Shown here piece by piece: positions 1 to 64,000 of a stretch of DNA of 64,000 nt. The translations under genes and the position numbers were made by a program. The stretch covers positions 124,001-188,000 of the forward strand of contig JAIWND010000040.1 in assembly GCA_025330725.1 (NCBI GenBank), read 5' to 3'. Origin of the DNA: Chlamydoabsidia padenii. Taxonomy: Eukaryota; Mucoromycota; Mucoromycetes; Mucorales; Cunninghamellaceae. The stretch's first letter is position 1; each line of letters opens with the position of its first letter. The notes under the pieces were generated by a model that was given only the letters and a program-made list of their open reading frames with translations, had not been told where the DNA came from and did not search any database.

Positions 1-264
1 GTTGTTATTCCATAAAGTTGCAATATGACTGTATATCTTGAGAGACTTTCTTTCCCCTTCGTTTTTATTCAAGAACTGTAAAAATTTATCCTTCGTTGGT
101 ATCATCTTCCCATATCTTTTAGATAACTGTTCTATTTCCTTCACCAAGCGATCCGCTAACACCTTATGTACAAAGTAGACAAACTGCTTATCATCATCGT
201 ATATAGTATGGGCCTCCGCTGGTTCAACGGGATCGATGTTCATATATTGGGCTGCTTCCATCAT
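1..264 (-). CDS. Fanzor-associated locus W, 5' end only (runs off window)
   Basis: The first 88 codons of a gene read leftwards out of the window, starting from a double ATG at 264. The product begins MMEAAQYMNIDPVEP and contains the stretch VKEIEQLSKRYGKM. It closely matches the start of locus B at 23906 (MNIDPVEP, VKEIEQMSKKYGKM), and the similarity continues upstream of the ATG. Locus B carries a Fanzor nuclease core on the same strand about 2.4 kb further on, so this is inferred to be the N-terminal exon of a second copy. This copy has no stop codon over the 88 codons visible, whereas B has stops, so it may be the more intact one. I do not recognise the N-terminal domain itself; the Fanzor assignment rests on locus B. 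Confidence 0.55.
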   Translation of the reverse strand, partial: MMEAAQYMNIDPVEPAEAHTIYDDDKQFVYFVHKVLADRLVKEIEQLSKRYGKMIPTKDKFLQFLNKNEGERKSLKIYSHIATLWNNN

Positions 265-386
265 ATGTTTATACTTTTTGATATTCACTCACAAAGAAAA
301 AAGAAAAAAAGAAAATGGTGAAACTGAAAAAGACACGTTAATATCAAGTACGAAACAGGACAGAGTGTTTATCGTTTGAGATTGAG
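265..386 (-). promoter_or_regulatory. Shared left-end / promoter block of locus W
   Basis: The roughly 120 bases before the start of locus W match those before locus B (23777-23905). They share the core GATAAACRCTCTGTCCTGTTT in the same order and at a similar distance, followed by a T-rich tract and AAAGTATAAACA just before the ATG. Similarity stops abruptly upstream of about 386, as expected for the left boundary of a mobile element that carries its own promoter. Confidence 0.55.
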
Positions 387-793
387 GCGGCGCTTAAAGA
401 TACTGCATTAACTATACTACTGTAGTTTCTTTTTCTCTCCTCGTCTTGCATACAAGAGATGATGGCATATAATTTATTGTATTTTAGTCACATATCTCTC
501 TTCCTTTGACCTAATGACAAGATCAAACAAAAGTCTATGTTTCGATTCTACTCTCGACGATGTGTGATCACACTTGTAAGCCATAATGTTTGAGGATGTA
601 AAAAAGGTTTTTATTGTCAATAATCAACATACTTCATATCACACCATATACAGTCCATACTAAATTAATATATACTAATCTATACTACCTTCACCACCTC
701 ACCATTACACATATCCACCAGATCTACACCACAGAAAGACTTCCCTGTCTATAAGCTAGGCACCAGTTTTCCCTTTTCCCAAGGTACTCCCGG
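387..793. other. Intergenic, AT-rich
   Basis: No convincing reading frame, repeat or RNA gene is visible. It separates the diverged left end of locus W from the unrecognised gene on the same strand. Confidence 0.5.
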
Positions 794-1560
794 TCAAAGT
801 ATACTATAGCGCGGATGTATCCCAAGTGTCGTTAGGCTGATTGTTGAAGTCTTTGAACTTTTGGTAAGTAACTTCAACGGCCACAATGGTTTCGGCAGGG
901 GGATCCAGCATGGTTCGTTATTACTAAGCACATAGACACACCTTTCCTCGTGGTGGAGGACTGAACAACCAAAGTGTGCATGGAACAATAGTTTCTTGGA
1001 CCAGTAATACATATTTTGTGTGTTGAAATCGAGACATACAATCCTGCTATCTTTATGAAGACACTAATCACAAAGAAGAAGAAGAAAAAAAGTTGGTGCA
1101 ATAAACAAGACATATTTACTTACGTCTAATTGCCAGTTTGACATGAAAGCAAACATAAACATCCTGTTGTTCACGGCGTCGCTGTTTTTTTTGTAAAGCA
1201 GTGACCACCCGAAGATATGATCTTGTCCCTCCACAAAATCAAACTTTGTTACACAAGTGAATGCAGTTAAGAAGTCCATTTTTGTTTTTCTTTTCTTGTC
1301 AGTACAACTATAATTGTTTGGAGGCTTGCTGTTGGTTTCGTTGATGGAGCGTCCAGGACAATTGGCATATGCAGTTCCATCAAGATAATCAAAGTGTTGT
1401 AAACAAAATCTTGTTCTTGATCACCCAGGGCCCAGAGGTTATTTTGTAAAAATAACATCCAATCCTGGCGAGGCACGGTGCGAGTAGCTGGACAAACATC
1501 TATCGCACCATCTATCCGTTGGTTGAGTAATTTAACAGCTGGTCGAATTCATAGTAAAAG
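794..1560 (-). CDS. Unrecognised multi-exon gene or gene fragment
   Basis: Three coherent reading-frame blocks lie in order on the minus strand. The first includes VPRQDWMLFLQNNLWALG, the second FDFVEGQDHIFGWSLLYKK, the third CVYVLSNNEPCWIPLPKP. The last two join in frame across a good GT-AG intron (GTAAGT after an Asp codon near 1121, acceptor TTAG near 1064), giving a product ending GIHPRYSIL. The link between the first two blocks is unclear, and no start codon could be chosen. Several Cys and His residues in the last exon could bind metal, but no family is recognised. It may be a transposon-derived or lineage-specific gene. Confidence 0.4.
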
Positions 1561-1680
1561 AGAATGTTGTATAAAGTGATTCAAGGTGTAAAGAGAGAAA
1601 GACCGAGGAGCAATTTTTTTTTTTTTAAAAAAAAAAAGGTTCCCACCAATTAACTTCCTTTTCTTTCGCTTTACCAAAAG

Positions 1681-1856
1681 ATGGATATTATTGAACCAAT
1701 TGATAAAAAAGACGAAGTGCGCATTTCAAAAACCATCTCGTACATTCTTCGTCATGGCGCTGTCAAGGAAAAGCTGACCATACGACGAGATGGATTCATC
1801 AAGGTATCCGACCTGGTAAGGCCCTCCCCCCCCCCCGGTATCCTGACTTGTCTTGA

Positions 1857-1896
<40 letters not shown>

Positions 1897-7263: not shown

Positions 7264-7805
7264 TCAATAGCGGGCTACTCTACCGTCTTTCCTTCTCTGG
7301 GAAGGTGGCGAATCATAATCTCCTTTCACAGATCTGACATTATCAAAAAGACACTCGAACAGATTCGTTGCTGTTGTTACTGAACAAGGCTTTTTCAATG
7401 CATCTTTGTAAAGGTGGCTATCACATAAACAACATCGTTTCAAAAACAAGCATTCGTTAGTGGAGAATAAATTGGCCTTCATGTTTACATGCTGCTGTGC
7501 GTCGTCTTCCATAACCTTTGATCCGGCTTTGGTAGCCTCTTCCAGAATCCCTGCAAAATACAGTGGTGCCAGAAAAAAGTGCCAGACACAAATGGGAGTC
7601 TTGATGATTGCTTTTGATGCCGAAGAATAGGCATTCATTGTGAATCTGGATCTTCCATCCTTTTGTTTCTTCAGACATGGGGGTGGGGGATCATGGTAGC
7701 CAGCGATTCGAATCGGTTTGATGAAAGAAGGAACCATCCAGCTTGATACGAGCTCATTTTCGCAACGGTAGCCATCGTCTTCACTCTGGAATCGATACCA
7801 GTCTA
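7264..7805 (-). pseudogene. Fanzor relic A (nuclease core, internally deleted)
   Basis: Read on the minus strand, the order matches locus B: a decayed RuvC-I (GIDSRVKTMATVA near 7790; B has GVDPGVKNMASAV), then KKQKDGRSRF (B: KKQGGRQSRF), then SRIKGYGRRR (B: SRIKGYDKRS), then CCLCDSHL (B: CCLCDSRL), then LFECLF and a tail PREGKT close to that of locus C. The blocks fall in different frames, a TAG precedes RuvC-I, and about 300 bases are missing compared with B. The RuvC-III Asp motif and second zinc-finger half were not found. It cannot encode a nuclease. Its 3' end keeps the paired hairpins described separately, in the same order as in C. Confidence 0.7.
7266..7305 (-). ncRNA. Two-hairpin Fanzor guide-scaffold candidate, locus A
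   Basis: On the minus strand, stem CCTTC/GAAGG (7291-7305) is followed by stem AGTAG/CTATT with a 4-base loop (7266-7280, one G-T wobble). The same two stems occur at the same place in locus C (CCTTCC/GGAAGG and AGTAG/CTACT), with CTATT replacing CTACT so that pairing is kept. Position at the Fanzor 3' end matches where the guide RNA scaffold is encoded in this protein family. Confidence 0.45.
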
Positions 7806-9354
7806 CTTGACACCCTTTTTAAAATAAGGAGCAGTGGAAGTTGTTGTTTTTGATGCTGGTTATGTTCAAGGAGCCACATTATTGTTGTAGAAGAGGGAAT
7901 GTTTCGTTCAATAGGTGGAGAATGAAAAGTCAGTTAGTATTATGTGGAGATATCATATGTATTTTTTTTTTTCTTTTCAAGTCACCAAGTCATCTCATAT
8001 CCATTTCTCATAAAGGTGGAGGAGTCAGTCATCTTCTCCTTCCAAATAGTAATCTGCCAAGATATGTAGTATGGAAGCTAAACGGGGGAAGAACCCCCAA
8101 AGAATAGTGGAAAAGAAATATCAAAGCTCTTTTATGCAAAATGGAAAGTTAAATGACCCCGTGTGAACTATGCAAGTTGACTAAAAAAGATCAAACCAAT
8201 CGACCCCGCGTGGACTCATTCACTGACCACTTTTCTGATTCAGATGGTTACAATTTGTAGATGATACCCTTATCCATGTTTAGTACTTCCAATCATGTTT
8301 CTAAACGATCATGCCCATTTCATGTCACTGATGGTTTACATTTTCCTTGAGCCAAAATCCGTTGTGAACGAAAAATTGAACTTACTATGATGGAAGGCTA
8401 TCGGGATAAAGTGTTAACAAAGATTGTAGCACGCCAATTCCCTTTTTCGGAAATGGCAGTAGATTTAGTGTGCTGTGGATCAACGTTTATTGAAGTTGAG
8501 CAATATAAACACAAAAAGAGATTCAAGTGTGCAAAGGAAAAGATATTCAGGATGACAGGCGGGGTGGAACGTATGCGGGTCATATTTCAAAGACCGAGTA
8601 AAGTCGGGAGTTTAATGTTGAACCTCAATTGTGCATGAATTTTATAATCCGGCGAACCAATTCTGAACATCGGCAGTATTCGACTCTCTTCATTATGCAA
8701 ACAGCCTCGATCATGCAAAATTTATATCCCGACATATGCCTTCTCCCCCGCTACACAGACGGCCCACCTAGTCAATTCCCCTGCTCACACAGAACTGTAC
8801 CCAACTTACCGACCACGTTTTCCTGTCTATCAAATCCTTACCTGAAGAATAATGTGCTATTATGCAAGTCTATGGGCACTTATTTTGACTGATCCTTGTC
8901 CTCATTCAGCTTCTTTGCCTGGTTTTGATATTTACCAGTTAAAATTATGCTAATATCAACACTAACAATTATGTGGAACCTTAGAACAGATAGGATCGAT
9001 GTTGAACCATTCTGTATTCATAGCTGATGAAGCCCCCTGCCATGGATTGTAATGTATTCTATACATTCCGTGGATTATATGCTTCATGGCTACAATTGCA
9101 ATGATATGTACCTTGTCAACTTCATCGAAGGAATCGCACTACAGTCCTTGTCCATCAACCTCTTCTCATCCACCGCGCTTCAACAACAATTACAAACCGA
9201 CATTACTGATCAACAGATGCTCTTTAACAAGGCCGCAACACGGTAAGGGCGGTTCAAGTAGCTTGACTCATTCAGACCAGAATATTCTTGTTGTTATTGT
9301 TTAGCTCAAGTTGAAAATAAAAAAAAAATTAATCAAGACATCAAAGTTTTTTTC
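7806..9354. other. Long region without a recognised gene
   Basis: About 1.5 kb between Fanzor relic A and the CK1 gene. An 83-codon plus-strand frame at 8387-8638 (begins MMEGYRDKVLTKIVARQ) has no recognisable motif, and an unrelated shorter one follows at 8629-8892. Base composition is mixed, and the region may hold the degraded 5' part of relic A or other old insertions. I found no inverted repeats marking an element. Confidence 0.4.
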
Positions 9355-11869: not shown

Positions 11870-11916
<47 letters not shown>

Positions 11917-12327
11917 TCAACTAATAAAATGATGATGATGTTATCTATTGCTAGTTTTATTAATTAATTAATTAAAATCAATAATAAAATATACGATGTT
12001 TAAAAGTGGTTGAAAGAAATGATCAAAAGCAATCGTACATGAAAAAAAAAAAAAATCAAACAGTCAGTTAGTACTGTGATCCGCCCCTTTTGTCTATGGA
12101 AATGATAAAACTTACCACTTGAATGATAAAAATCATCACCGAAGTGCAGTGTGTGTGGGTTGCGATAACTTCCCGGAAAAAATTGAACATAATGAAGGAG
12201 TGGACTGATTGGGATTATAGATTTACTTGTACGCACCAAGGTGCTTCATTGTCCTCAAGATCAATCAAATAAAGGAAGGAGGAGGGTAAGGATTGATCAA
12301 CCACAGTTGGTGGTGGACATAGGAGAG
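11849..12327. other. Intergenic, CK1 3' region with a 44-base T run
   Basis: Holds an uninterrupted T run at 11872-11915, probably in the CK1 3' untranslated region, and then AT-rich DNA up to the stop codon of Fanzor E. The right-end box shared by loci B, C and D was not recognised downstream of locus E. Confidence 0.5.
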
Positions 12328-14830
12328 TTAGACAGAAAATCGCGATCTTGAGAGGGAAAGAGGGCGCCCAAATCCAGCGACAGAAGATTGCATAATTCGA
12401 TACATGTTTGAGGCAGCATTCTTGTCGCGATTGATCACCCTATCACAGGGAATACAACTTTTGAGGGCGACGATGGCACATTCATCCAGTCTTGCATTTG
12501 GCATTCTGGTGTCACACGAGGAGCAGATCTACAAAAGAAGGTGTGACGCCGAAAAGATGAAAAGTACTTACCTGGGAAGTCAGATATTCGTTAGTATGTC
12601 CCACAAGACAAAAAGTACGTCGTTGGCGTTCAATCATATGTCGTCGGATGAGGTTGGTAGGGCCTATAGGATAGCCATGTATGTGATTGGTATTGGTGTT
12701 TATCATTCCAGCACCAAAGGCAACCAAAGTGAGGGTAGTTCTATCCAGATCGTTCGATCCATGCCGGTGTTTCTGTAGTCTTTCATGGTGCTAAAAGGAA
12801 AGATAAAGATTAGCTCTTTCCTTTCTCTGATAAATTTGCTTCTTACCTGTCGCCGAATTCCATGAAGTAAGTCAGCTGTAATTCTTCTTTTATTCACTTT
12901 AGTGACTGACATATTCCTTCTGCGGTGGCATGCTGGATGGCCAAGCTTTCCAAAAGTCCTGCCGTTCGATCAACATGTTTTGCATTTTGTGTAAAGTCTA
13001 TTTGACCAAGGTTGTGACGGCTGGTGTCAAACATAGCCAGTTGACGCTGCATGATGAATGACTGGCCCTGTGTAGCGATATAGTCGTTACATATGGTGTC
13101 TTGTCGTTGAATCCGTTGGGCGTGTCGCTTGGCTTTCTTGTTTTTCCGCCGGCGTCGATTCCTTGGTTGAGACTTGTTGATTATGATAAACACCAGCACC
13201 CATCCCTCCAGCTATCGTGATTATATCCCGCCGTCCAGGATCCAGGCCAATTTTACTGAAATGCCCGTTGACTACATCGTGTGTATTGGTCAAGTCAGGA
13301 GCGTATAAGTCCAGTCGGGTTGGTTATGGGAGCCGTGCAAATACAAAGTTGATTGAGACACCATCGATCAAGATGTATCCGTAAAACATGAGGCGGCCAC
13401 TGAGATGTCGTGACATAAGGTCTTCATAGCTAGTGAAAGAAAAGCTACTGTGGTTAGCTATCTGCTTTTATATTTTTGACACTCTTCTCTTACCTTGTGA
13501 TACTAAACTTCCGGAATTGGAATGCATCGTAGTACACCTGGTAGGATTCAAGGAAAGACGGACCTTCCGTATCCACTAGCGCACCTTGGTTCCGTTCCTG
13601 GCTTTGGCATTCTCCGGGACGAGAGCAATAAATTTTCGGTGAGTAGATAGTTCCGGAAGTATCGAGAAGCTGTAAGTCTGGACAGATCGTTCATGTTCTT
13701 GTGCATTGTAATTGTCGTAGGCTTGAAGTATGGCGATGTAAATAGGTACAAGAGATCCAGGGTCAGCGCTCATTTGTTGAGTTGTCAAGATACCCATTGT
13801 CACCGGTTTCAGCGCTATTATGCCCGTCCAAACTTGCGAGATTGCAGGGTGTAAATGATCAGGGATGGTCTGTGGAAGTTCCAGAAGTGGGCGACTTGCT
13901 TGAGTAGAGGATGCAAACATCTCATAGAGGAGTTCCGTCACAGTACGCATCATGGATGCATTGGGCAGCTAAGAGGAGGAAAGAAAGAAAGAAATTTAAG
14001 TCGTGATCAGTTCCAAGCTGCTGAATGCGTAAACCTACCTCTTCTAACAGCAGAGCAAGTTTCAATTTACAGAACTGCTTGATTCTTTTGGAGAAGTTGA
14101 CATATAGATGCATGCTTATACATGAAGATTGGCGTTCACAGTAGTCTGACAAAATTATGGTGTTCATTGTATATGCGGTGGTCAAGTTTGGGTGGGTTTC
14201 TGTCATGGTGTTCCAATGCTGCACAATAACATCCTTGGGGAATGCGCTGTTAGTTGAAGTCAGTGTTCGGCCAAGTACAAGTTGAGTTATGGAGTATAGA
14301 CCATTCTGGAAGATGAGAGCAGGTGGTATATTGTTGGGATGATGAAGAGTGAAGTCGAGTAAAAAGAGCTGCACGCGATATGCAACTTCAGTCACTTGCC
14401 GCACCGCCGTGTTGACGTTCTGAAAGAGAGTGTTGTTGTATTGTTTCTTCACATATGCGTTAAAGGATCGCTTCATCGTATACTGTTGTTGACGTGGTAG
14501 GACATTATTGAAGTACTGCTGCTTGTTCATCCGACGAGTTATTTCTACTGCTTGAGCATTCTGTGCTGTCCGTCTACGGTCTGCGTTCCCTCTTACTCGT
14601 TCAATTGCGGCGCTGTTGTTGTTGTTGACGATGACTTGATTCATAACTACAAAGTGAAGTAGGGCAATGAGTATTCAAAAAAGAGGAAGAAACATTTACC
14701 TACACAGTCTTTGTTTACTAACTTCAAGTTCCAGCAGGAATGCTTGTTCGTGTGTTATATCATACGTCGTTGCAAACAACCCCAGATCTTGTGCCGATTC
14801 TTCTACTGTTGAGGAGGCATGTGTACCAAC
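12328..14830 (-). pseudogene. Fanzor E, divergent multi-exon RNA-guided nuclease gene, frame-disrupted
   Basis: Minus-strand blocks in order: an N-terminal region (13922-14644 and 13576-13953, joined by a clean intron to read LLLEELPNASMM), RuvC-I (IGLDPGRRDIITIAGG followed by QVSTKE, about 13180-13255), and a RuvC-II region LTLVAFGAGMINTN. Then comes the alternative-glutamate segment TNEYLTSQ, joined across an intron (12530-12571) to a zinc finger CSSCDT...CIPC, and RuvC-III INRDKNAASN (about 12390-12420). This order is the Fanzor/TnpB nuclease core. Frame changes without splice sites are needed near 13590, 13110 and 12900, so the copy is probably dead unless those are sequencing errors. The 5' end is uncertain; a likely first exon lies at about 14703-14830. 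It belongs to a different subfamily from loci A-D. Confidence 0.72.
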
Positions 14831-15191
14831 GTGGAGTATAAATCATCTAAACGGATTTTGGAACCTCCAACGTTTGCATGGTCCATTGTGATGAGTAGTG
14901 AATTGGGAATGAATGGAAGTGGGAAAAAGAAGAAGTGCGCAGTGAACATTTTAGAAAACTGATTATGTGCATCAGCGGTGGTGAATTGAAACGCCGACAA
15001 AATATTTTTTTGCATTATGTACATCATGATCTCACATACAGTCATTTCAAAAAGTAAAGTCGCTGGTTTTGAATTTGAAGTCGTGCAAAAAAATGGTGCA
15101 TTCAATAATGATGTCGGCTGATCCAAAAATAAGGTCGTATTCAGATTGGATGAACCTTATTTATTTTTATATATTTTTACAAACATTTCAA

Positions 15192-16482
15192 ATGAATATG
15201 CAATTTTTTTATGAGGATGGGCAAGGACGTGTTATTGATGAACATGGAATTAAGCCGATGGATCTTACAGTTGACGAGGAGCTTTTTGCCATCGAAACAA
15301 TAAGTTCTCGAACTCAATTTCTTCAAAATAAACCTCCAGAGAGACCTCCTAAGCCTGCATTGCATCCAGTTGGAGATGAAAGAAATCATGCTGATATTTA
15401 TATGGAGCTCTGCAATAAGCGACGTTATACATTTTACTCTGATAACGAAAAAACTAGATTCTTTCATTTATTTTTTAGTAAAAGCCTTAGTGCTTCGGCC
15501 GCTGCGACACAATTAGGCATTCATATTCGTGCAGCTCAGAGATGGGTCAAACGTTATTACGAAGATCCTGAAAGCATTTTTGAGAAAAAGAAAAAATCAG
15601 GACGACGTCGTATTCTTGGAGATGAGCATAAGCAATTTCTTTTAAATTACATTGATGAGAATCCTTCTGCTGTTTTAACTGAAGTGGTAGAAAGTTTAAC
15701 ACAAAACTTCGTAGATCTTAATGTTTCTCGTAGTACTGTCTATAACTTCATGACAACGCAGTGTAATTTATCCATTAAACAAGCGCAATTCCAGCCTGTA
15801 GAAAGAAATAGCGAGGAAAAAATTCAGCAAAGGTATGATTGGGTCCAAAAGTGGCAACAAACTGATTTGGATTTTACAACAAATTGTGTCTTTCTTGATG
15901 AATCAGCCTTTCACGTTAATTTGAAACGGGGTATGGCTTGGTCAAAGAAGGGGACTCCTGCTATAGTTACTGTGCCTGTGACTAAAGCAAGAGCAACATC
16001 CATTTTAGGTGCAATATCTGCCTCTGGCTTAATCAATGTTAGTTTGTGAGTTCCAAAACGCATTAAAAAGAGAAAGTTTGGGTGTGAGACTGATGCTTAT
16101 AGCATAGGAACAGTGACAGGACATTATCTAAGCTTTTTAAAAGCCACTCCTGATGAAATGGATAGGTATCCAGAAATGAAAGGGCACTATCTTGTCATGG
16201 ACAATGCTCCAATTCATAGCTCAACTGACATAGGAAAATACATTCGCTCTCGAGGATACCGATATGTTTATCTTCCTCCATATTCTCCTGAGCTAAATCC
16301 AATTGAGCAATTCTGGTCGGTTGTCAAGAGTAAAGTTAGGCGAAATAAGTTTTTGGAAAAAAGAATCACTCATGACTAGAATTAGTGAGGCATGTGATAG
16401 TTTATATTTAAGTGATTTCAAAGGTTTTATATCTCATTCTGCCAAATGTTTTGGTAAGTGTCTCAACAAGGAGAGGTTGTAG
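15192..16482 (+). pseudogene. Tc1/mariner (IS630-like, DD34E) transposase, broken
   Basis: From ATG 15192 the frame encodes a helix-turn-helix region (SASAAATQLGIHIRAAQRW, then a second HTH) and a DDE catalytic domain: FLDESAFH (first Asp), MDNAPIH (second Asp) and LNPIEQFW (Glu), with 34 residues between the last two, hence DD34E. The frame is interrupted by TGA at 16047-16049, where reading continues in frame with VPKRIKKRK (a CGA to TGA change would explain it). An extra A in the run near 16352 shifts the end. The shifted frame continues as RISEACDSLYLSDFKG to a TAG at 16482. Terminal inverted repeats were sought within 200-400 bases on each side and not found. Confidence 0.88.
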
Positions 16483-16973
16483 AATTGGTCAGCCATTTCG
16501 TAAAAATGAATCAATGGAATGAACGAAATGAATACAACTATGACGCGACGGAATGATTGCCTTGGCGAGTGTTGGTGAAAGCGGTGTAAACGGTGTAGTA
16601 AATGGTGTAGTAAACGGTGTTGACGGTGTAAACGGTGTTGGCGGTGTTGGCGGTGTTGGCGGTGTTGACGGTGTTGGCGGTGTTGGCGGTGTAAACAGTG
16701 TTGACGGTGTTGGCGGTGCCTACCTCTGATTGGCTGGCCCAAAACTGACCTGATGCTCTTTTTTTTTTTTGTGATTTCTTTAGTTTTTTCAACAAAGTGT
16801 TGCCATGACAGCCACCGAAGAAAATAACCAGGATGAAAATGAGAGTAAATGGATATTCTGAATTTATATCTCTCTCTGATATTTTTTTATTAATCGCCTG
16901 ACTTATTTCGTAGTGATTAATGACCTTCAAAAAAAAAAATAGCCATAATTATTGTTTTTTATTTGCTTATTGA
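16483..16973. other. Intergenic after transposase, includes minisatellite
   Basis: Contains the 9-bp repeat tract described separately and AT-rich DNA to about 16973. Nothing else is recognised. Confidence 0.5.
16582..16719 (+). repeat. 9-bp minisatellite GGTGTTGGC / GGTGTAAAC
   Basis: About fifteen head-to-tail copies of a 9-base unit, mixing GGTGTTGGC, GGTGTTGAC and GGTGTAAAC variants, directly downstream of the dead transposase. Because the unit is a multiple of three it stays open in some frames, but it has no start, splice or homologous context that would support a protein. Confidence 0.9.
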
Positions 16974-18420
16974 CTAATTATGATGTTGTTTCAGAACGCA
17001 AGGTCGTTTACGATTTTGAGATGTGGAAAAAAGTTGGTCGAAGATGGAGCTGCTTATTGTTGGGCGATGTCGCTTGGGATGCGGACAATCAACAGATGGA
17101 ATGCAAATTCGATCAAAAACGTCAACTACAAGCAAAACGTCTGAAATATCGGTGACCAGCTTTGGTAAATCATTCAGGCAATCTGGAATCTTAATTTTGG
17201 CAAGTTCATGCATAATATATAGACCACTTGAAGGTAATACCAAGATATAAAAGGTGATTGTTCTACCAACGATCTGTAAACCCATAACTCCCATCATTTT
17301 CTGCGTATCCAGGGCGTCTTTACAAAAAACTGAGACGCGTAAATAATCTTGACAGACCGAGTAATGGTTAGAGCCTTGATGTGCTGGTTTCGCCTCCCCA
17401 AAACCAATGTTCGCTTTCCATTTGACGCCTTGTAATCTGGTGATGCAAATGTTGGGTCGCCAACTCAGCAAGCTTTGTTGCTTTTTCGCTTCCAATATGG
17501 TTTCGTTCGTCCATCGCAAAAAAACGCCTCCATCGGGTTCATCAAATATACCGCACAAGAATGGATCGACATACCGAGAGCAAAGTTCCATTTCATTTGA
17601 CTCTTCTGCAAGGGATACACGAGGTAGTTTCTTAACCAGCTCTGCTATTGCTTTGGCAAACTTATATTCGTTTGTGGTAAGATCCAATCCGAATAATTTT
17701 ATAGCAGCCTCTTCTCTTGTTGTCGCGGTAGATAAAAGGTCTTCGATGATCTTGATGATTTCCATGACTACGTTGGTAGGCATTCGTGGTTTCTTGATAT
17801 CATAGATAGCATCAACACGGTCAATGGTAGCCTTTAGGTTGTGTTCATCGAAAAATGGCAGAAAATCTTCAGAATATTGATTTCTAGACAAGAATAGAAT
17901 TGAGGTGGACGCCAGGGCATATTGGACATGGTCCTCCAGAGAGAGTTTCCATTTATGAGCCAGTAAGGACTGTTGAAAGTTATAAAATGCATCGGTCGCG
18001 TCAAAGTCACCAATCATGAACCGGTCATCATCGCAAGGAGGTATAATTGATAGACATGAATGGTCCATTAATTCTGAGTCAATGTCATCAACGTCTACAA
18101 TCTCATCCACACTTCGTTTTTTGATGAATGTGGTGGAACGTCATTGCTTTCTTGGTGTTGCGGTGCTGGCGGCATAGATTCGGGATGGTCATTGATAAAA
18201 TGATCTTTTAAATCGTTTAAAAGTTTAAAATGAGCAGGACAAGACAGACAGCCAAAGTGCTTTTGAATATCTGGATGTTTGCCATCAGCTTTTACAAATG
18301 AATAATCGGGTGTGTCATGACGTCTAACGCCAACAGGTCGTTCGGGAACATTGATTCTGTGCTTTTTGAAATGATGGCGTAATTTCTGTGGCGCTTGTGG
18401 TGTTGGTGTGATATATATGT
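16974..18420 (-). pseudogene. Unrecognised zinc-finger-like gene, frameshifted
   Basis: A 378-codon open frame ends at 16974 and has no ATG at its upstream end. The 5' continuation lies in another frame (about 18111-18420): it encodes PERPVGVRRHDTPDYSF and a C2H2-like unit CLSCPAHFKLLNDLKDHFINDH. The two are separated by one base at an A6 run near 18115. The long part includes ITRLQGVKWKANIGFGEAK and a hydrophobic stretch TITFYILVLPSSG. I do not recognise the family. The arrangement suggests one protein with an N-terminal zinc finger that has lost frame, or a homopolymer sequencing error. Its position beside a transposon and Fanzor E suggests a mobile or lineage-expanded gene. Confidence 0.5.
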
Positions 18421-19146
18421 AGTATATGGAATACGAGTTTGAAAGTAACCTTTTATTATAAAAATAAGAGTAAAGAAAAAAGAAATATCAGATTACCAAC
18501 ACACTTGTTAAAAAAGAAAAAAGATTAATGATGACACAGCTTCATTTCTTTCGATATACGAATCCTGGTCGGCTGGTGTTCACAAAATAAATTACTCCTC
18601 TTTTTTTTTTTTTAGACGTAGAAGTTTAAACGCCTCTGCATTTCACACTGGGAAAAAATCCAAATTTCCAAGGTGATGCTGGTAAGTTGAATCATATTAA
18701 CATGAATGAATGAGAGTGTTTCCAATGTTTAATATATGCTTCGCGTATATTTAGAAGAACGCATCCACGCTACGATACCAGTAGTCAACATGCCGATATT
18801 ATGATAATTAGTGATGAAGGAAACGCTAAGGGTTCGTACGTCCGACATTTTATTTCACATCCTGCGTTTTTTTTTCTTTTGGAGTAACTGACCTGATTTT
18901 TGCAAACCTCGAATTCTATTTCCACAATATACTGTACTTCGTCTCAAGGATTTTGTAACGCCGTCTAAAACCTTAATGCCGCAATTTGCTGAATTAGTTT
19001 TCTTGGTGTGACGATAAAAGTGAAGATTAGGCCAGCCTTGGCGTGGTTTCTTCTCTTTATTGTTTCTCTTTTTTTGTATCCTTGCACTCTTTTTATAACG
19101 TCATCATCAACATCAACAATAACACCATTATAAAACACTTTGAACG
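18421..19146. other. Intergenic, SLA1 promoter side
   Basis: AT-rich, with a T run at 18600-18614. A short plus-strand coding-like fragment near 18765-18835 (reads STLRYDTSSQHADIMIISDEG) has no start or splice context and may be a relic. The last 150 bases are pyrimidine-rich, as before other starts here. Confidence 0.45.
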
Positions 19147-23403: not shown

Positions 23404-23485
<82 letters not shown>

Positions 23486-23643
23486 AGTGAGTGTGGGACC
23501 ATCGGATTCTGGTTTATTTTTATTATTATTTTACCTTCTTGTTGTGGTTGTTGTTGTGATTGATTATAAACGAGTGATGAGGAATGGATATAGGATCGTT
23601 GTACGTGGCGGGAAAGGAGTGGACGTACCAAGGATGTTGACAT
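23153..23643 (-). CDS. MRPL37: Mitochondrial large-subunit ribosomal protein mL54
   Basis: Exons 23535-23643 and 23153-23394 join to 116 residues. mL54 is a mitochondria-specific component of the large ribosomal subunit. The N-terminus MSTSLVRPLLSRHVQRSY is a typical import presequence. The family core is GVTLKGISFLKDGKDPVAL followed by DTEYPMWLWDLLDE, then a basic tail. The length matches the family. The single intron contains the longest homopolymer in the window (78 bases). Confidence 0.9.
23405..23482 (-). repeat. 78-base homopolymer in mL54 intron
   Basis: An uninterrupted run of 78 A on the plus strand, which is T on the sense strand of the mL54 intron and sits just upstream of the 3' splice site. 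It fills about half of the 140-base intron. Confidence 0.97.
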
Positions 23644-23776
23644 GTTTTATCTATGGTTTACAATTGGAAAAGAAGAAGGTTTCCAGCTTGAGTGTTTTTG
23701 CTCCCCATTCCCCTCAGTCACTTGACATAACTTTAAACCCCGTTAAAGACAGATGGAGTGAATTTTTTATTTTTCA

Positions 23777-23905
23777 TCTCAAATGATAAACGCTCTGTCC
23801 TGTTTAATACTTGATATAAACGTTTCTTTTCCAGTTTCACTCTTTTTACTTTTTTTTTTTTTTTTTTTTTTTTCTTTTGATCCGTATCAAAAGTATAAAC
23901 ACATA
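23777..23905 (+). promoter_or_regulatory. Left-end / promoter block of element B
   Basis: Matches the 5' flank of locus W, with the core GATAAACRCTCTGTCCTGTTT, a TTCC/TTTCAGTTTCAC segment, a T run of 23 bases, and AAAGTATAAACA before the ATG. Sequence conservation outside coding DNA suggests a promoter carried by the element. Confidence 0.55.
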
Positions 23906-26310
23906 ATGGGAGCAACTCAAGATATGAACATCGATCCCGTTGAACCAGTGGAGGCCCATACTTTATACGTCAATGATAAGCAGTTTGTGAATGTGTGCGA
24001 CTACTTTGTACATAAGCTGTTTGCTGGTCGTTTGGTGAAGGAAATAGAACAAATGTCTAAAAAGTATGGGAAAATGAAACCATAAAAGGATGAATTTTTA
24101 CACTTCTTGAAAAAAAAAACGAAAAGGAAAGAAAAGTACTCCAAATATACAGTCAAGTTGCAACTTTATGGATTAACAGCTTGGGCGTTCGTGACCATCA
24201 GCAAGGTTAACATAAAAAATAAACATAATTAAAAACATACCCTTACTTATGTATCATTTATTCATAACTTTGTAGATATACCCTCTATAACCAATCACCC
24301 ATATGTGTCGAAAATACTGACCAAAGAAAACTATCCAACTGTAGTAAAGTGACGAGCTTATGTTGCTGAACGTTGTGATGCAGTATATGATGAAGTAATT
24401 GGTGGAGGGTCCAGAGGAAAGAAATGTCAAAGTGTAAAGCAAGAAATCCCTTCAAAAACAAGCGGTTGAAATCAAATGAACCAGTGAAAATGGTGACTAC
24501 AAAAACAAGCATGCTGAAGCCTCTCATAAAAAACAATTATATGGATTGGATGAAGACAGTTTCTCATTATTATTTTTTTTGATATGACGACAATTATTCA
24601 ACTTTTAACTCGCAAGTTTTTGGAAAGGTATGTCAATCAAAACATTGTCCATTTTATAAGCGAGATTTGATTATTGATTACTATTATTATTATATTTTTG
24701 GGCAGCCAACTGACCTCAAGCAGCATTGATGAAATTGTCCCTGAAAATTACCGCCGACAGTCTTGTGACAGACTATTGTATCGTCTTCCCACAGGCATCA
24801 AGGAATTACTCTAAAATTAGAAGCTGAGTAAAGCTATTGGTGGTAGAAGACTGTTCGACGCATTTTCTGGCCCCCATTTGAATTCACTATATACATTATA
24901 TTACGGTGAACGACAACGAAAAAGCCACATCGAAACATCAGCAGTATCAACTACACCAGTATCATCATCACCTGTACTATCATCACTAGTACCATCATCG
25001 GCAGCACTATCAATATCAACAGTTGGATCAATAGGACTCTCATCGTTGGGCCTCGATAATAACGCACCGTTTATCAGCCCTGGTGAAGTACGTGACACAT
25101 TGAATTTGACGAATCTTGAAGCTGGTTATAGAGACATGATTACCCCACAACTGACTATATTGGCAACAAATATCCTGAATATGCATGCTGATAACCGGCT
25201 CAAGTACGTTTTAACAAAGGCCATCACCATTCTTTTGCGGATTTATTGTGCTCCAAAACGAGAAAAAGCATATTTTCGAAGAATAATAAGGTAACTCAAA
25301 AGGGAAAAAACAAAACAAAAAAGAAGACATTTATGCCTTGAGCTTTTTGCTCTTTCATATTTTAGCTCTCCTACTATACCCGACACCTCGCCAGATGTAT
25401 TCCTCAGAAAGAAAAAATCGTTGTTGAAGTGGCCCATCAAAAAGCACAAAAAAAGACATTGAAAACTTAAACGTTGAACACATACTGAACATATACGCCA
25501 AAAGCTTGACTATGAAAACAAAACGATCATGGAACTTCAATATGCGCTGTATGCGGACAATGAAATACCAGACACTTCCCCCGGTCAAACCACTGAAAAT
25601 GTTACAGCTGGCCATAACGTACTGGAAGACCAACTGCTACTGGAAAACGAACTGCTGCTGGAGGGCGCACTGATGGAGGAGGACGAAACGATGGCTGAGG
25701 AACTGATAGCCGGGGAACTACTACCCGATGACAATGAACCAAGTTCGACCAATTTATATACTACTCCCAACCATCCGACTACTTCTATGGACTCAAGTGC
25801 TGTCAAAATCAATAGAATGTGTACCTGGATTATGAATCTGTTGCAAAAACGGCCAAAAGACTTTGAGCTTACAGAAACGGACATTAAGGCAGAATTTGAC
25901 AATGTTTGTATCATCGAAGTTCAAGCAATGATCCGGATACATGCGTTTTTTCACCCCTTTGTTTCTCAAAACGTTGGCGACTAGGACATAGACAAGCATG
26001 TTTTGGTCAATATTTTTATTCTCGACGCCTGTAATGCAATCTTGGAAAGCACAGGTTACTCCAGATATAGCCGAAGACTTATGCCCAACACTTCTCCAGC
26101 GACCCAACAAGCATTGCATTTGAACATCCCGGCTCTTTATCATGCAAAAAAGATCATCATCGAAAGAACATACCCCGGTCGCGCACTCATCAACCTGAAG
26201 GCTCGATCAAAAGTGTGACAGAAATATATGGGTTCAAAATAAACTTGGCGGCACAAAAGTTTTTCCTTGAAGAATGTTTTCACCTGCAGGATATTGAAAA
26301 TCTATGAAAG
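23906..26310 (+). pseudogene. 5' part of Fanzor gene B, decayed
   Basis: Starts MGATQDMNIDPVEP, as in locus W. An open 60-codon frame is followed, past a stop, by DEFLHFLKK matching DKFLQFLNK of W, so a single TAA interrupts an older, longer exon. A good intron (GTTAAC to TTTGTAG) ends near 24274. Further coding-like segments follow, each ended by stops or frame breaks: NYPTVVK, YRRQSCDRLLYRLPTGIKELL, a 138-codon frame at 24878-25294 (ends KREKAYFRRIIR), a 151-codon acidic frame at 25529-25984 and 26003-26218. These are inferred to be remains of the long N-terminal half of the Fanzor protein. I do not recognise individual domains. Confidence 0.5.
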
Positions 26311-26319
26311 GAGGGAAAA

Positions 26320-27615: not shown

Positions 27616-27644
27616 CTTGGCTGAAATAATAGTGTCTCCGCCCA

Positions 27645-27711
27645 TCTCTCGGTTAAGAGAATGCGGGACATCCGTCCCTTGAGGCGGACGGGCTCGGGGT
27701 CCTTTGGGGCC
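27645..27711 (+). ncRNA. Guide-scaffold candidate (double hairpin) of element B
   Basis: GC-rich island in AT-rich DNA. Stems are TCTCT/AGAGA (27645-27660), CCGTCC/GGACGG (27672-27691, or alternatively GGGAC/GTCCC at 27665-27678) and GGTCC/GGGCC with a TTTG loop (27698-27711). The last two sit where loci A and C have CCTTCC/GGAAGG and AGTAG/CTACT. A GGTAA motif follows, then about 60 bases of AT-rich DNA to the right-end box. This is the place where Fanzor guide RNAs are encoded. Confidence 0.5.
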
Positions 27712-27775
27712 AACGGTAAATAAAAAAAGCCAGATACATGATAATATCCACTATTATACTAACTGACATTTTATT

Positions 27776-43034: not shown

Positions 43035-43836
43035 AACATCCCTTTACCAGATTGCTCGTCTTCTTTTAGGGGTACAATGTTGACAAAGCATAACTGGGTA
43101 AAGGGGACCATGCTCCAGTTGGGCATTCACTATATCGTTGCAACCTTGATAGATCAAACAAATCTTACGCAATTGGAAAAAAAAAATAAGTGTCTGATTG
43201 TAGAGAGACCAAGAAGAATACAGTACTTACTTTTGATGTTTTATATTCATCATTTTCAACCACAAAAGGCCGTTGAGCTTTTTTCAAAACATCCAAGCAT
43301 CTTCTTGCCAGACCAGGATTAGCACCCCAAAAGTTGGGTTTTCAGCTCATCAGGAGTGACATTGTCCCAGACAAGTGGAGGACGAACTTGTTCTTGAGAT
43401 CGTCTGGCAAAGCACATCCATCAGTTCTTATATCTTGAGGAGGACATTGAAAGATTGCCCTATAAAGTCCAGGATCAATAATGCTACATTTCGGTATTCT
43501 TGTATATATAATTACCTGAGTCTGGCGAGATCCTGACTAGAATTTAGTTAATCACCCGAGTCTGAAATGACTCTGAGGTCGAGTTAGTGAACGTAGTAGC
43601 ACATGTAATGACCATACCAACGAGGATGTTGGAGTATACTTTCGAACCATGTGGATGGGAACTAGTTGAAAACGTTGACAATATTCATCATAGGCTGCTT
43701 CCATAGGAGCTACCGAAAGGAATGTATTCGTGTTTGTGATCCGTTTTCTCAACACCAGCTGTATACATGCATATGTAAAAGTAGGATTGATCAAAGTAGG
43801 CCGCAGAAAGTATACTCGTTCGTGGCATGTTATCAA
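43035..43836 (-). pseudogene. Fanzor relic F
   Basis: On the minus strand, a block MEAAYDEYCQRFQLVPIH is followed by a RuvC-I-like IIDPGLYRAIFQC (Asp codon at 43474-43476), KNKFVLHLSG, then a RuvC-II-region FWGANPGLARR and the alternative-Glu segment VENDEYKTSK, which ends at a GTAAGT donor (43225-43230). After the intron come CLIYQGC and LCQHC (zinc-finger halves) and W-stop-RDVKR, a RuvC-III Asp motif preceded by TAA. Only about 45 residues separate RuvC-I and RuvC-II, so there is an internal deletion. With in-frame stops it cannot be functional. It is assigned to Fanzor by motif order; it resembles loci A-D and E only at the motifs. Confidence 0.55.
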
Positions 43837-48790: not shown

Positions 48791-49252
48791 TCCGTCTAGA
48801 AAAATAATCTTCGTCGCAAAGGACAGGTAAAAGTCATCGTAGGCTTGTACTGGTCAGTACAAGAAACTTGGTACTTGACTTTTGCGGTAAAGTCTGTTGG
48901 AAATATGCCATAGTGTTCACATCACCACTTTAATCATTAGCATCTATTGACAATTGAGCGAGTAGAGCCGATTCCAAATCTTAGTAGAGGCGGGCGGGAT
49001 TAGAAAATGAAGTTTGGTCCGTCTACAAAAAAAGAAGATCTTTTCATCCCATTTTTTCTTACAAAAGACAGGTGAAAGTCATTGTAAACTTGGACTGACA
49101 GACACATGGGACTTGGTGCTTGGCTTTTTCTGCAAAGTATGTTGGAAATATACCATAGTGTCTACATTGCCACTTCAATTATTAGCATCTGTTGACATTT
49201 GAGTGAGTAGTGCTCTTACCAAATCTTAGTAAGGAATCAAGGGTGGGCGGGG
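48791..49252 (+). repeat. Direct tandem duplication, two diverged copies
   Basis: Copy 1 (about 48791-48999) and copy 2 (about 49018-49252) share CCGTCTA, ACAGGTRAAAGTCAT, TGTTGGAAATA, CCATAGTGT, ATTAGCATCT, TTGACA, CCAAATCTTAGTA and GGGCGGG, in the same order. They are roughly 75-80 percent alike by eye. The second copy ends where Fanzor relic D begins. No coding sequence is seen in it. Confidence 0.75.
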
Positions 49253-49525
49253 GTTTTCAAGCCGACTGTACCACCTATTGCCATATACGAGGTTTTGCTA
49301 TACAGTACAAGGCAGTAATTCAGAATAATTATCCTGCCTTTTCGGCTATCACATCAAGCACAACAACAACAGCTGATCAATTAGTTCAAATTCTTTTTCG
49401 GTCATAACACTTCATGGATTGCGAACATGAATGACTCCCGCCCTCTGAGGCATACGGGCCTCTTTGAAGGTAAGTTTCAAAAAATCACATTCGTTTTTCT
49501 ATACAACAATAATTAACGTTTCTTT
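49253..49525 (+). pseudogene. Fanzor relic D (C-terminus and 3' region only)
   Basis: Encodes QNNYPAFSAITSSTTTT, matching KDDYPAFIPSITATTT of locus C, and then NDSRPLRHTG, matching RDIRPLRRTG of locus B, in different frames. No RuvC or zinc-finger part remains. A hairpin GCCC/GGGC (49440-49459) and a weaker GCCT/AGGT stem follow, then GGTAAG and the right-end box, with the same spacing as in B and C. The 5' part was lost, apparently at the tandem duplication. Confidence 0.55.
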
Positions 49526-49555
49526 CTCTGCTTAATCGACGGAAAAATTAAAGTG
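49526..49555 (+). repeat. Right-end box of locus D
   Basis: CTCTGCTTAATCGACGG followed by AAAAATTAAAGTG. Differs from the box of element B at a few positions and one inserted G. It lies 58 bases after GGTAAG, close to the 60 and 56 bases in B and C. Confidence 0.6.
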
Positions 49556-49591
49556 CCTCGAGCCCAGGAGAAGGATCTACTTTTTTCATGA

Positions 49592-49957
49592 CAAATCGGA
49601 ATTTGAAAGTTATACCAAGTTTATAAGTTTAAAGTGCCATATCTATCTAAAACATAGTAAACAACACATAAGTATTTGTCCTATATATTTATAGTACATG
49701 TATGGAAGGTTTCAGGCACCTGTGTTGTTTTTGTGAAGTTTTGTGAAGGTTATTGTTGACTATGACCATTGGCCATTTGTAACCCCGAAAACACTAATTA
49801 TGTGTTTTCGACCTTTTACACACATGAAAAAGTAACAAAAACTTCTATACATGTATTTTAAATGTATATAATGAAGCTACCTGCGTTTTTACTATGTTTT
49901 AGATAGATCTGGCACTTTAAACTTGTAAACTTGCCATAGTTTTCAAATTCCGATTTG
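49592..49957. mobile_element. MITE-like element 1 with about 70-bp terminal inverted repeats
   Basis: The left end, CAAATCGGAATTTGAAA...CAAGTTTA, AAGTTTAAAGTGCCA, ATCTATCTAAAACATAGTA, reappears inverted at the right end (49887-49957) with few mismatches. Weaker similarity continues inward to ACATGTATRGAAG. The total is about 366 bases, with no coding capacity. No clear target-site duplication was found by eye, so the superfamily is not assigned. Confidence 0.85.
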
Positions 49958-49972
49958 CTAAGAAGTAAGTGA

Positions 49973-50117
49973 ATTCTAGGAGAATCGCCCAAACAGTACA
50001 ACAATAAAAAAAGGTGAATGTAGTCTATTACTTTATTAAATTACATGTATGTGAATCAAATATGATGGGTAATTAGGGGGGGGGGAAAGGTACTAATTAC
50101 AACAAGTAACTATCACG
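49973..50117. other. Spacer between the two MITE-like elements
   Basis: AT-rich with a G run at 50077-50085. No gene is seen. Confidence 0.5.
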
Positions 50118-61901: not shown

Positions 61902-61941
<40 letters not shown>

Positions 61942-62442: not shown

Positions 62443-63017
62443 TAGTGATATGTGATGTTACTAGTTATTATAATATATATTATTAACCATTCCCTTGGTA
62501 TAAATATATATCTTTTTACACAAGAATAAAACTTTTTATCTCCAAACATGCTCTTTACCATTTACATCGATTGACGTTTTTGATACATACATACTAACAC
62601 GATTTACAGGAAAAAAGTAATGCACAGATATAGCAAAAGGTCATTGAATTCAGTTACAGTATCAGTATAAACTAGGCTATGTTTCATATATCTGAGTAAG
62701 TGATTGAATAAAACATGATGGGTTTATGTACTTTTTGTCTTTGTATTTTTTTTTTTATATGATTCTATAAATGGCATTGGAATATATAATGTAATGGAGA
62801 GAGAAGATTATGCAAAGCGGGGATTAAAAATGAGAGCGAGTTTTGAAAGGTGGATATGGTCATCCTTACAATCTACAAAGCAATATAATATTGCTCTTAT
62901 TGCACACCACGCACTACCCCTATTATCGTCTGTGAAAAAATTACTGTTTGATCAACTTATCAATAAAAATGCCTATTCGACTTTGCACCTTACATTTATC
63001 CATAGGATCGAAATTTA
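62443..63017. other. Intergenic
   Basis: Velvet gene 3' region with an AATAAA-like AGAATAAAAC (62523-62532). A 75-codon plus-strand frame (62794-63021) has no recognisable feature. Confidence 0.45.
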
Positions 63018-63400
63018 CTAGGACCACAGCCAACAACTAAGTTCTATAACACCAAGACCAATAAACAACAACCAAATTAGCAGTTGAGACTCATCATGAA
63101 GATAATGGTAACCCTTTTGAACGGTGCTAATGATATGAATTGGTAATAGATATGTGGTGATACCCTGATCCGAATGAAAAACAAAAACAAAAACAAAAAA
63201 CACATGTGATATTTTGAGAATGTACTATCTGATGTGGGATGTATCTGAACAGTAAACTCTTCGCTACTTGTAGGTAATCATGAGGAATTCCTATCAAAAT
63301 GGAACTGGTATGATTCAACAAATGTATAAAACTGGGTAAAGTAGTGATATCAATTGGCAGAATCATACTCACCTTACTCATTCACATTTAAATTGCCATC
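63018..63400 (-). other. Possible small membrane-protein gene, unrecognised
   Basis: Two minus-strand frames look protein-like. One (near 63200-63380) reads LPSFIHLLNHTSSILIGIPHD then YLQVAKSLLFRYIPHQIV. The other (63018-63120) reads LLIWLLFIGLGVIELSCWLW, a good membrane segment. They are separated by an AT-rich gap that might be an intron. No start codon or splice pair was convincing and no family is recognised. Confidence 0.3.
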
Positions 63401-63566
63401 GAATTGCCTTTTACTCTTTTTTTTTGGGGGGGGGTCTGCTTACTACCATCAAGTACCTTTGTCAACAGTCTTTTGCTCCTGTAACTGATACTCAATGGAT
63501 TCAATTACTATTGATAAAAGGAATAAACAAACAAAACGAGTGAAAGCATATACAATGACTCTGCCC
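63401..63566. other. Right flank of Fanzor locus C
   Basis: Sequence beyond the right end of locus C (its minus-strand flank begins GGGCAGAGTCATTG), which would be the guide-specifying flank if the locus were active. It includes a T and G run at 63419-63434. Confidence 0.4.
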
Positions 63567-63596
63567 AACTTTAAATTTTGCAACGATTAATCGGAG
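63567..63596 (-). repeat. Right-end box of locus C
   Basis: On the minus strand, CTCCGATTAATCGTTGC followed by AAAATTTAAAGTT. Matches the boxes of loci B and D. It lies about 56 bases downstream of the GGTAAG motif that follows the double hairpin. Confidence 0.65.
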
Positions 63597-63660
63597 AAAA
63601 TAAAAATGTTGTTGAAAAAAATTGCGGATATGTACGTGAAGTTCCTTTTAGCTTACCATA

Positions 63661-63700
63661 AGTAGTAAACTACTGCGTCGAACATCCTTCCCGAGGAAGG
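63661..63700 (-). ncRNA. Two-hairpin Fanzor guide-scaffold candidate, locus C
   Basis: On the minus strand, CCTTCC/GGAAGG with a 3-base loop (63686-63700), then AGTAG/CTACT with a 4-base loop (63661-63674). The first overlaps the codons for LPREG near the protein C-terminus and the second overlaps the stop. Relic A keeps both stems with a compensated change. Element B has different bases that still pair. Confidence 0.5.
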
Positions 63701-64000
63701 TAGTGCGTCATAATTTCGTTCCAAGGATTGGCGTCACCGAATAAGCACTCGAACAAAGTTGGAGCTGGTGCTGCTGGTGCTGCTGCTGCTGCTGTTGTTG
63801 TTGCTGTTATTGATGGTATGAAAGCAGGGTAATCGTCCTTGCTCGCCATTTTGTAAACCCCTTTTTTCAAAATGTTAATCGCAGCATTTTGATTCCGCCC
63901 CCGCGAGGCAAGCCTTTTTCTTCTTCCGACGCAGTCAGAGTTGATACACACAACGATACCGAGATTTAGCTTAATGCTGTGCTGCCGCTGTGGGTGAACC
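63670..64000 (-). CDS. Fanzor locus C, C-terminal part (enters from beyond window)
   Basis: The minus strand reads through from the window edge in one frame: LNLGIVVCINSDCVGRRKR (second half of the zinc finger; B has TNLGIVYCINKDC), then SRGRNQNAAINILKKG, the RuvC-III block, where the usual catalytic Asp (GRDTNAA in B) is Asn. An Ala/Pro/Thr-rich linker follows, then TLFECLFG and the end PREGCSTQ. The frame is uninterrupted, so the copy is young, but the Asp-to-Asn change would disable RuvC cleavage if this is the catalytic residue. The rest of the gene is outside the window. Confidence 0.7.
   Translation of the reverse strand, partial: VHPQRQHSIKLNLGIVVCINSDCVGRRKRLASRGRNQNAAINILKKGVYKMASKDDYPAFIPSITATTTAAAAAPAAPAPTLFECLFGDANPWNEIMTHYLPREGCSTQ

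Follow-up and report, generated by a model that had tools for sequence, protein, structure and literature searches.

Introduction

Fanzor is the eukaryotic cousin of TnpB, the ancestor of CRISPR. Among the closest described systems is Spu-1 of Spizellomyces punctatus. In the parts of that report used here (PMC10432273), SpuFz1 is described with REC/WED, RuvC and zinc-finger TNB domains and with active-site residues E541, D383, N385 and D606; the genome has Fz genes, complete or partial, at 42 loci, along with 134 ghost loci, the RNA scaffold lies between the stop codon and the right end of the element, and the guide lies in the flank. A Spu-1-like ghost locus in the same source is a right end without an Fz gene, situated between two inverted repeats. 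The omegaRNA of GtFz1, according to the portion of its description consulted, overlaps the last 17 codons. Here we report on a 64,000-nucleotide stretch of the mucoralean fungus Chlamydoabsidia padenii (contig C35, JAIWND010000040.1, positions 124001–188000; hereafter the window) from an assembly of 34.2 Mb in 95 contigs. The name of this species was not found together with Fanzor among the open-access papers listed.

We interpret the window, with a probability of roughly 85%, as carrying the decayed remains of Fanzor1-type transposable elements of at least three subfamilies, scattered among host genes, which when intact would have encoded an RNA-guided endonuclease together with an omegaRNA in the right end. 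The observed part of this reading is carried by protein homology, lost open frames, right ends that are shared while their flanks differ, and the many genomic right ends that have no detectable Fanzor gene nearby.

Results

Fanzor-type loci in the window

An earlier note, made from the letters of the window, had proposed at least seven Fanzor loci in 64 kb but gave no coordinates for those it called A–F and W, so the loci were counted afresh. About seven places were recovered, but only four are clearly coding (7.3 kb; 12.3–14.7 kb; 24.7–27.6 kb; 63.7–64 kb), one is marginal (43.2 kb) and three are non-coding element remnants (1–1.6 kb; 7.9 kb; 49.3–49.6 kb). All four clear coding copies are broken, with stops, frame breaks, a deletion, truncation or a lost catalytic residue among them. 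The motif order that the note described is whole at 12–13 kb and at 26 kb, but elsewhere it is partial (7.3, 63.7 and, doubtfully, 43 kb).

Decoy windows, ten for each protein profile, gave best independent E-values (i-E) of 0.074 with the 26-kb-type profile, 0.044 with the 12-kb profile and 0.033 to 2.4 with the profile of canonical copies; six decoys for the right-end nhmmer search gave a best E of 0.19. The TnpB zinc-ribbon profile PF07282 alone has no match in the window at E ≤ 0.001, and Pfam applied to ten open reading frames of the window gave no nuclease domain for the Fanzor candidates.

The 26-kb element

The element near 26 kb has the following features:

23776–27808, forward strand: 26-kb-type Fanzor element (E of the earlier note); left limit at the onset of DNA similarity to the next copy, right limit at the shared right end.
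24713–27603, forward strand: coding region in several frames, with RuvC-I GVDPGVKN, SEYLSS, CCLCD..CINKDC and GRDTNAA, in-frame stops and a C-terminal deletion.
27650–27808, forward strand: conserved right-end region, candidate omegaRNA scaffold, with the predicted guide starting at 27809.

The open frame 26308–27612(+), which served as the query for genome-wide relatives, holds GVDPGVKN, SEYLSSKL-CCLCD, CINKDC and GRDTNAA. By tblastn, pieces of other copies cover 24713–27603, and following them in this copy takes the frames 24713–25291, 25808–26209, 26143–26706, 26830–27075 and 27184–27603. The surroundings of RuvC-II lie in another frame (27222–27431), the stops fall within stretches alignable to other copies, and the sequence that follows NAASN in other copies is missing. 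The copy contains the published Fanzor1 pattern D-X(125,275)-[TS][TS]-X-X-C4 zinc finger-X(5,50)-RD: GVDPG is followed about 205 residues on by YLSSKL-CCLC..CINKDC and then by GRD, with frame shifts in between. Counterparts of SpuFz1 D383, E541 and D606, placed by hand via the SpuFz1 alignment of a canonical copy, are all kept. The 272 bases past 27808 have no other match in the genome. A candidate left end shared between 1843–1896 and 23434–23487 was discarded, as it looks like poly-A/T only.

Relationship to known Fanzors

A canonical copy elsewhere in the genome (L063) matches SpuFz1 (8GKH) at E 2.5e-7 and PF07282 above the cut-off; three of three canonical copies tested exceed that cut-off, and genome-wide PF07282 gives 32 matches, 30 of them above it. 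In the alignment of L063 with SpuFz1, E541 falls on the E of EYxTS and D606 on RD (chain numbering counted by hand). The 12–15-kb gene of the window was approached through six related proteins; for four, a source is named (Hesseltinella, Absidia or Rhizomucor). A profile of these six relatives (A8) matches GtFz1 (9CER) at E 9.7e-8, the next match being at 0.26. The Hesseltinella relative alone gave no Fanzor match among solved structures, PF07282 was found in one of four relatives tested and there below the cut-off, and the joined window gene reached at best 0.038, to a viral TnpB-like protein. By way of its relatives, assignment of the 12–15-kb gene to Fanzor1 is well supported. The Fanzor identity put forward in the earlier note, and with it the presence of Fanzors in Mucoromycota, is borne out by the GtFz1 and SpuFz1 matches.

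The 26-kb type is tied to the canonical copies by motif order and by profile comparison: hhalign of ten 26-kb-type sequences against five canonical copies gives 92% and E 6.8e-7 over GD, EYLTS, the zinc finger and RD-N-A. We file it as Fanzor1-like, because it matches no solved Fanzor1 and its profile link is indirect. Database searches with the 26-kb-type sequence and profile returned, within the sensitivity of word-based methods, C. padenii proteins only (three and five, respectively).

Several results weigh against our interpretation. Neither a single sequence nor a profile of the 26-kb type found a solved Fanzor or TnpB in the PDB, and its PF07282 matches stay below the cut-off (P0003, 0.028; L035, 0.2), with none listed for the window copy. 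The hhalign comparison fails against the single canonical copy L063 (0.6%) and is weak against the A8 profile (6.6%, E 0.0055). AlphaFold models were unusable, with a predicted local distance difference test score (pLDDT) of 38.5 for P0003 plus five rows and 39.7 for P0011 plus five rows. Single-sequence folds of the right end (n = 10) had z-scores from −0.97 to +2.03, no better than shuffles. Terminal inverted repeats sought at two left ends were equalled by 47 and by 296 of 300 shuffles.

Copy number, subfamilies and age

The genome search with the 26308–27612 frame gave 102 matches, many with internal stops and two of them in the window (the query itself and 63874 to the end). The copy count across the assembly that the earlier note had called for comes to at least 104 protein loci when three Fanzor protein searches are merged within 4 kb: 65 of the 26-kb type, 31 of the PF07282 type and 8 of the 12-kb type. 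These totals are lower bounds, since 97 of 139 candidates of the 26-kb-type search were scored; 10 of 39 rows of the 12-kb-type search were omitted as places already counted, and with all 39 the total is still 104. The high density claimed for the window agrees with our counts: its three protein-search loci amount to 4.7 per 100 kb, where the genome averages 0.30. Protein loci number 2.11 per 100 kb on 11 contigs shorter than 250 kb and 0.19 on 13 larger ones, and listed right ends 0.92 and 0.36, a contrast that is biased because most of these 24 contigs of known length (of 95) were chosen for holding a locus or a right end.

In a tree of 18 C-terminal pieces, the 26-kb and 63.7-kb copies share one clade (99/97) but belong to different subclades with different nearest kin, and the 12-kb gene falls outside; the 12-kb row was joined by hand, two of 15 inner branches are starred, and a long-branch warning applies. 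At least three subfamilies are present. The note had counted at least two, and the division found here differs from its scheme. Its suggestion of recent transposition is not supported here: the clear copies are all broken, and over the best piece the nearest DNA copies are at most 94.5% (26-kb element) and 96.5% (12–15-kb element) identical. Two canonical-type copies on contig C43, L005 and L006, are 99.5% identical over 1.9 kb; some subfamilies may therefore have moved or duplicated recently.

Shared right ends and ghost-like loci

Copies of the 26-kb type are alike up to about ...CTTATTCGACGAAAAATTCAAGTTACTC and then diverge. At least 40 further stretches resemble the last 159 nt of the 26-kb element, 40 of 135 candidates having been scored, and a 26-nt core is found at 131 genomic places with up to three mismatches, 61 of them exact, against none for the reversed control. 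Of the 100 places listed, 18 have a 26-kb-type protein match at a distance of 2.5 kb or less; around the other 82, all three Fanzor searches, including the 26-kb-type one with 97 of 139 candidates scored, are blank out to 5 kb. Seventeen gene-less right ends, picked from the list of matches to the last 159 nt and none of them within 5 kb of a Fanzor match, have about 165 nt in common, alignable to the 26-kb right end, and are followed by 17 different flanks. C is the first base in 15 of these flanks and is followed by A in 12, so the true end of the element may lie one or two bases beyond the limit drawn. The CA in 12 of the 17 flanks (L082–L098) stands directly after GTTACC and is possibly a target site; next to the left end of Spu-1, a CA is reported in the sections consulted (PMC10432273). 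The proposal that loci are tied together by shared ends is supported as regards right ends; inside the window, right-end tails have profile matches at 49457–49559 and 7987–7898.

We infer an omegaRNA at the right end from position, conservation and flank variability rather than from demonstrated structure. Consensus folding predicted no pair for 19 diverse copies. One subset of eight copies gave 23 pairs, three doubly changed, with a covariation term of −0.39, and a second gave 35 pairs, two doubly changed, with a term of +1.08, that is, against; the two structures differ from each other. A long-range stem seen by eye (AGGCGG/CCGCTT) failed its controls, with 71% of cells paired and 268 of 500 shuffles reaching its covariation score. 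For the terminal hairpin TAACTGA/TCAAGTTA, 28 rows show pairing in 98.2% of the 336 cells and in at most 66% when it is slid, but its covariation is thin, 47 of 500 shuffles reaching it and the double changes coming from one sequence. Two further alignments of the last ~50 nt were excluded, some of their rows being out of register.

The gene-less right ends may encode guide RNAs without a nuclease gene, and their arrangement resembles the published ghost omegaRNA loci of Spizellomyces. Alternatively, they could be non-autonomous transposons akin to miniature inverted-repeat transposable elements, with a right end kept for transposase binding and no guide RNA, an explanation to which we give somewhat less than an even chance. 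The ghosts are homogeneous, as expected of a recently amplified family, their thermodynamic folding is unremarkable, and RNAalifold on the 28 rows yields one terminal hairpin with two doubly changed pairs, both from a single sequence. Against this alternative, conservation spans ~165 nt, inner blocks included, which is more than terminal repeats usually show; coding copies of several subfamilies have this region after their stop codon; and the same layout occurs in the published Fanzor system, as far as the consulted text goes (PMC10432273).

The 12–15-kb Fanzor1 gene and its insertion

A second element, of a subfamily that is common to Absidia, Hesseltinella and Rhizomucor proteins, is split by an insertion:

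12209–15027, reverse strand: intron-rich Fanzor1 gene, coding pieces 12331–14674, with GLDPGRRD, NEYLTSQ, CSSC..CIPC and NRDKNAA.
15028–18837, no strand assigned: insertion splitting off the 5' end of the element; the C66 copy has only ~180 unmatched bases here.
18838–18923, reverse strand: 5' piece of the element beyond the insertion, 91.9% identical to the C66 copy.

Six exon pieces at 12331–14674(−) match at i-E 8.7e-24 to 8.7e-130 with a profile seeded by the same gene, and the RuvC-I piece at 2.7e-14 with the independent profile of canonical copies. The published Fanzor1 D...[TS][TS]...C4...RD pattern is present across introns and one stop. This stop, at 13324–13326, lies in a stretch that is open in the C66 copy, and a frame break occurs near 13580. 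Pieces of the element are 82.7–96.5% identical to the C66 copy at the DNA level. Its own right end seems to be lost; AAGTTATCG near 12.2 kb was dropped as a candidate, since the copies diverge before AAGTTATCG, and an inverted-repeat test using that region was discounted. A repeat at 11886–12206 is 70% similar to L069 1772–2035, both lying beside truncated 3' ends of Fanzor elements in opposite orientation.

The insertion carries a Tc1/mariner-IS630-like transposase unit (15035–16483; HTH_32 and HTH_23 over the cut-off, DDE_3 below it). Instead of being nested, the transposase might belong with the gene to a single Fanzor–mariner composite: the unit sits between the outer limits of the Fanzor element, and Fanzor1 proteins in Tc/mariner elements have been published (PMC3627910, in the part consulted). 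We consider this unlikely: the transposase is absent from the same place in the C66 copy, and 11 other near-full copies of the unit, 82–88% identical, match over its own span only. The unit has a stop at 16047–16049, and its copies on C20, C37 and (as partial units) C51 form equal-scoring inverted pairs, 2.5–3.7 kb from start to start. The insertion further holds a 388-codon open frame at 16977–18140(−) with no Pfam match and a 200-bp repeat at 18396–18595 with at least 19 other copies at 90–96% identity.

Intron-like signals in the right end

The sequence GTRAGT is the 5' splice-site consensus, and (C/T)TAAC is branch-point-like. GGT(A/G)AG(T/C) occurs in 18 of 23 coding or solo right ends measured, the 26-kb copy being among the exceptions, and GTAAGT in 16 of the 17 ghosts; outside the 23 stand the 7.9-kb tail (no right end; GGTGACT) and L028 (right end missing; GGTGAGT). 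In copies with a traceable frame, the GTRAGT-like motif starts 6–38 nt past the stop, once 86. A CTAAC/TTAAC motif follows, and in the consensus the next first AG is at the right end itself, CAAG/TTAC with the slash marking the boundary. Among other families, GTAAGT stands at the frame end in five of six L001-group copies; the motif is mostly absent around the stop in 12-kb-type copies, and the L059/L063 group has members of either kind. In the deposited gene model P0003, the GTGAGT of this region seems to serve as donor and to be paired with an acceptor in the flank; such a model is a prediction and does not count as evidence of splicing.

IStrons combine mobile elements with group I introns. 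A counterpart is conceivable in which the right end serves also as a spliceosomal intron that overlaps the omegaRNA. Splicing would then either break up the scaffold or join it to the flank and so compete with guide production, and the dispersed right ends would form a genome-wide bank of trans-acting guides. We hold this to be highly improbable. The intron-like signals are likely a coincidence, because the second and third of them also form hairpin arms. In the main text of PMC10711439, in the version consulted, 'intron' and 'splic' both occur 0 times, and in that of PMC10432273, likewise as consulted, 'intron' occurs 0 times and 'splic' once; IStron terms had no match in the open-access library searched.

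Other loci and genomic setting

The remaining Fanzor-type sites are:

1–1617, reverse strand: 5' part of a Fanzor-type element, recognized by DNA similarity, whose coding part lies upstream, outside the window (C35:120832–122137).
7267–7853, reverse strand: degenerate 26-kb-type Fanzor fragment with RuvC-I-like TGIDSRVKTMA and a TNEC..CCLCDS piece.
7898–7987, reverse strand: right-end tail of a 26-kb-type element (nhmmer E 2.5e-8, decoys ≥0.19).
43168–43341, reverse strand: possible very old canonical-type Fanzor fragment (ENDEYKTSKV), a marginal profile match.
49302–49561, forward strand: solo right end, ghost-like, with no coding match found beside it.
63563–63999, reverse strand: 3' part of another 26-kb-type Fanzor, continuing to C35:188719, with the RuvC-III Asp replaced (GRNQNAA).

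At the left edge, 3–382 matches 24178–23776 at 80% DNA identity, 288–1617 corresponds to the 5' region of one other copy and 288–1448 to that of a second, both at 83.7%. The degenerate locus at 7.3 kb matches the 26-kb-type profile over 7267–7818(−) at i-E 2.3e-11 and an independent C23 copy by tblastn over 7853–7536 at 5.2e-8; it has DNA relatives on C57 and C38, and no RuvC-III piece was found there. Because the 7.9-kb tail sits upstream of this coding fragment, it is probably a separate remnant. The 63.7-kb locus matches over 63673–63999(−) at i-E 7.8e-17, although it was in the training set of that profile, and at 5.5e-14 by tblastn with the C23 copy. It departs from the published Fanzor1 pattern in having GRN for GRD, and its match holds stops past the window, some of which could lie in introns. 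At 43 kb, 43168–43341(−) reaches i-E 0.0054 against a best decoy of 0.033, and 0.02 against 0.25 with a second profile; the site is doubtful because no Fanzor match of its sole DNA relative (C24, 70%) fell below 0.28.

The solo right end at 49302–49561 is a degenerate relative of the genomic right ends, its tail matching at 49457–49559(+) (nhmmer E 6.4e-11); on C59 and C32, sequence immediately following Fanzor loci is 89% identical to it in DNA. Directly after it, at 49571–49977, stands a fold-back (palindromic) repeat of ~400 bp, with seven other copies at 80–86% over nearly all of it. A direct repeat pair, 80% identical, occupies 48817–48986 and 49062–49231 and recurs at L069 732–905. Host genes lie between the elements, seven of nine pieces having a Pfam match (protein kinase, ribonucleotide reductase, UDP-glucose dehydrogenase, rhomboid protease, BCS1-like AAA, RhoGEF and purple acid phosphatase-like domains).

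That the seven sites are chance resemblances or an unrelated zinc-finger family, as the silence of PF07282 in the window and the near-decoy level of the 43-kb site might suggest, is scarcely credible, given that decoy windows are far from the E-values of the four clear loci, that window loci have DNA-level copies elsewhere in the genome and that relatives match solved Fanzor1 proteins. For the four clear loci this reading is refuted; the 43-kb site may still be such a resemblance.

Discussion

An intact element of this kind would produce an RNA-guided DNA endonuclease with REC/WED, RuvC and zinc-finger TNB domains. Transcription of its last ~165 nt would yield the omegaRNA scaffold, and the guide would come from the DNA that adjoins the right end, so that the enzyme could cleave the empty site of matching sequence and thereby help the element to persist. 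Any Fanzor still intact could also receive further guides in trans from stand-alone right ends.

Fanzor relics as such are ordinary in kind; those of C. padenii are unusual in scale, and the divergent subfamily and the gene-less right ends are also worthy of note. Ghost loci are among the least understood parts of eukaryotic OMEGA systems. With more than 100 scattered right ends as well as dozens of Fanzor genes, of which many are broken, a second fungal lineage allows one to ask whether guides survive their nuclease and work in trans. A further gain is a divergent Fanzor1-like family below the Pfam cut-off.

Our comparison with known systems, based on the portions of the cited reports consulted, reveals likenesses to several of them. 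Like PpFz1 of Parasitella parasitica (PMC11423790), the elements represent Fanzor1 from a mucoralean fungus, and the solved PpFz1 structure was not among the named structure matches of L063 or the A8 profile. GtFz1 (9CER), which is the best solved match of the relatives of the 12–15-kb gene, comes from Guillardia theta, an alga and not a mucoralean; the overlap of its omegaRNA with the gene is paralleled by the conserved region here, which overlaps the frame end. MCi-2 and similar elements of Mucor circinelloides (PMC3627910) share with ours the mucoralean host, a kept 3' part, a varying 5' part and the absence of recognizable terminal inverted repeats. MCi-2 has four 5' variants, whereas variation here takes the form of internal deletion or truncation, and its copies are 99% identical over 6 kb with 11–12 bp target duplications, compared with ~67–95% identity among the copies compared here. 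Spu-1 (PMC10432273) has 30-nt inverted repeats, whereas none were found here at two uncertain left ends, and a scaffold of 75 nt as compared with a conserved right end of ~90–165 nt. Furthermore, the 26-kb type is much diverged from SpuFz1, with a C-x4-C second zinc knuckle, and the window copies are broken. In its overall arrangement, by comparison, the C. padenii system is like Spu-1: both combine Fanzor1 proteins in many copies with a conserved non-coding right end after the stop codon and a variable flank.

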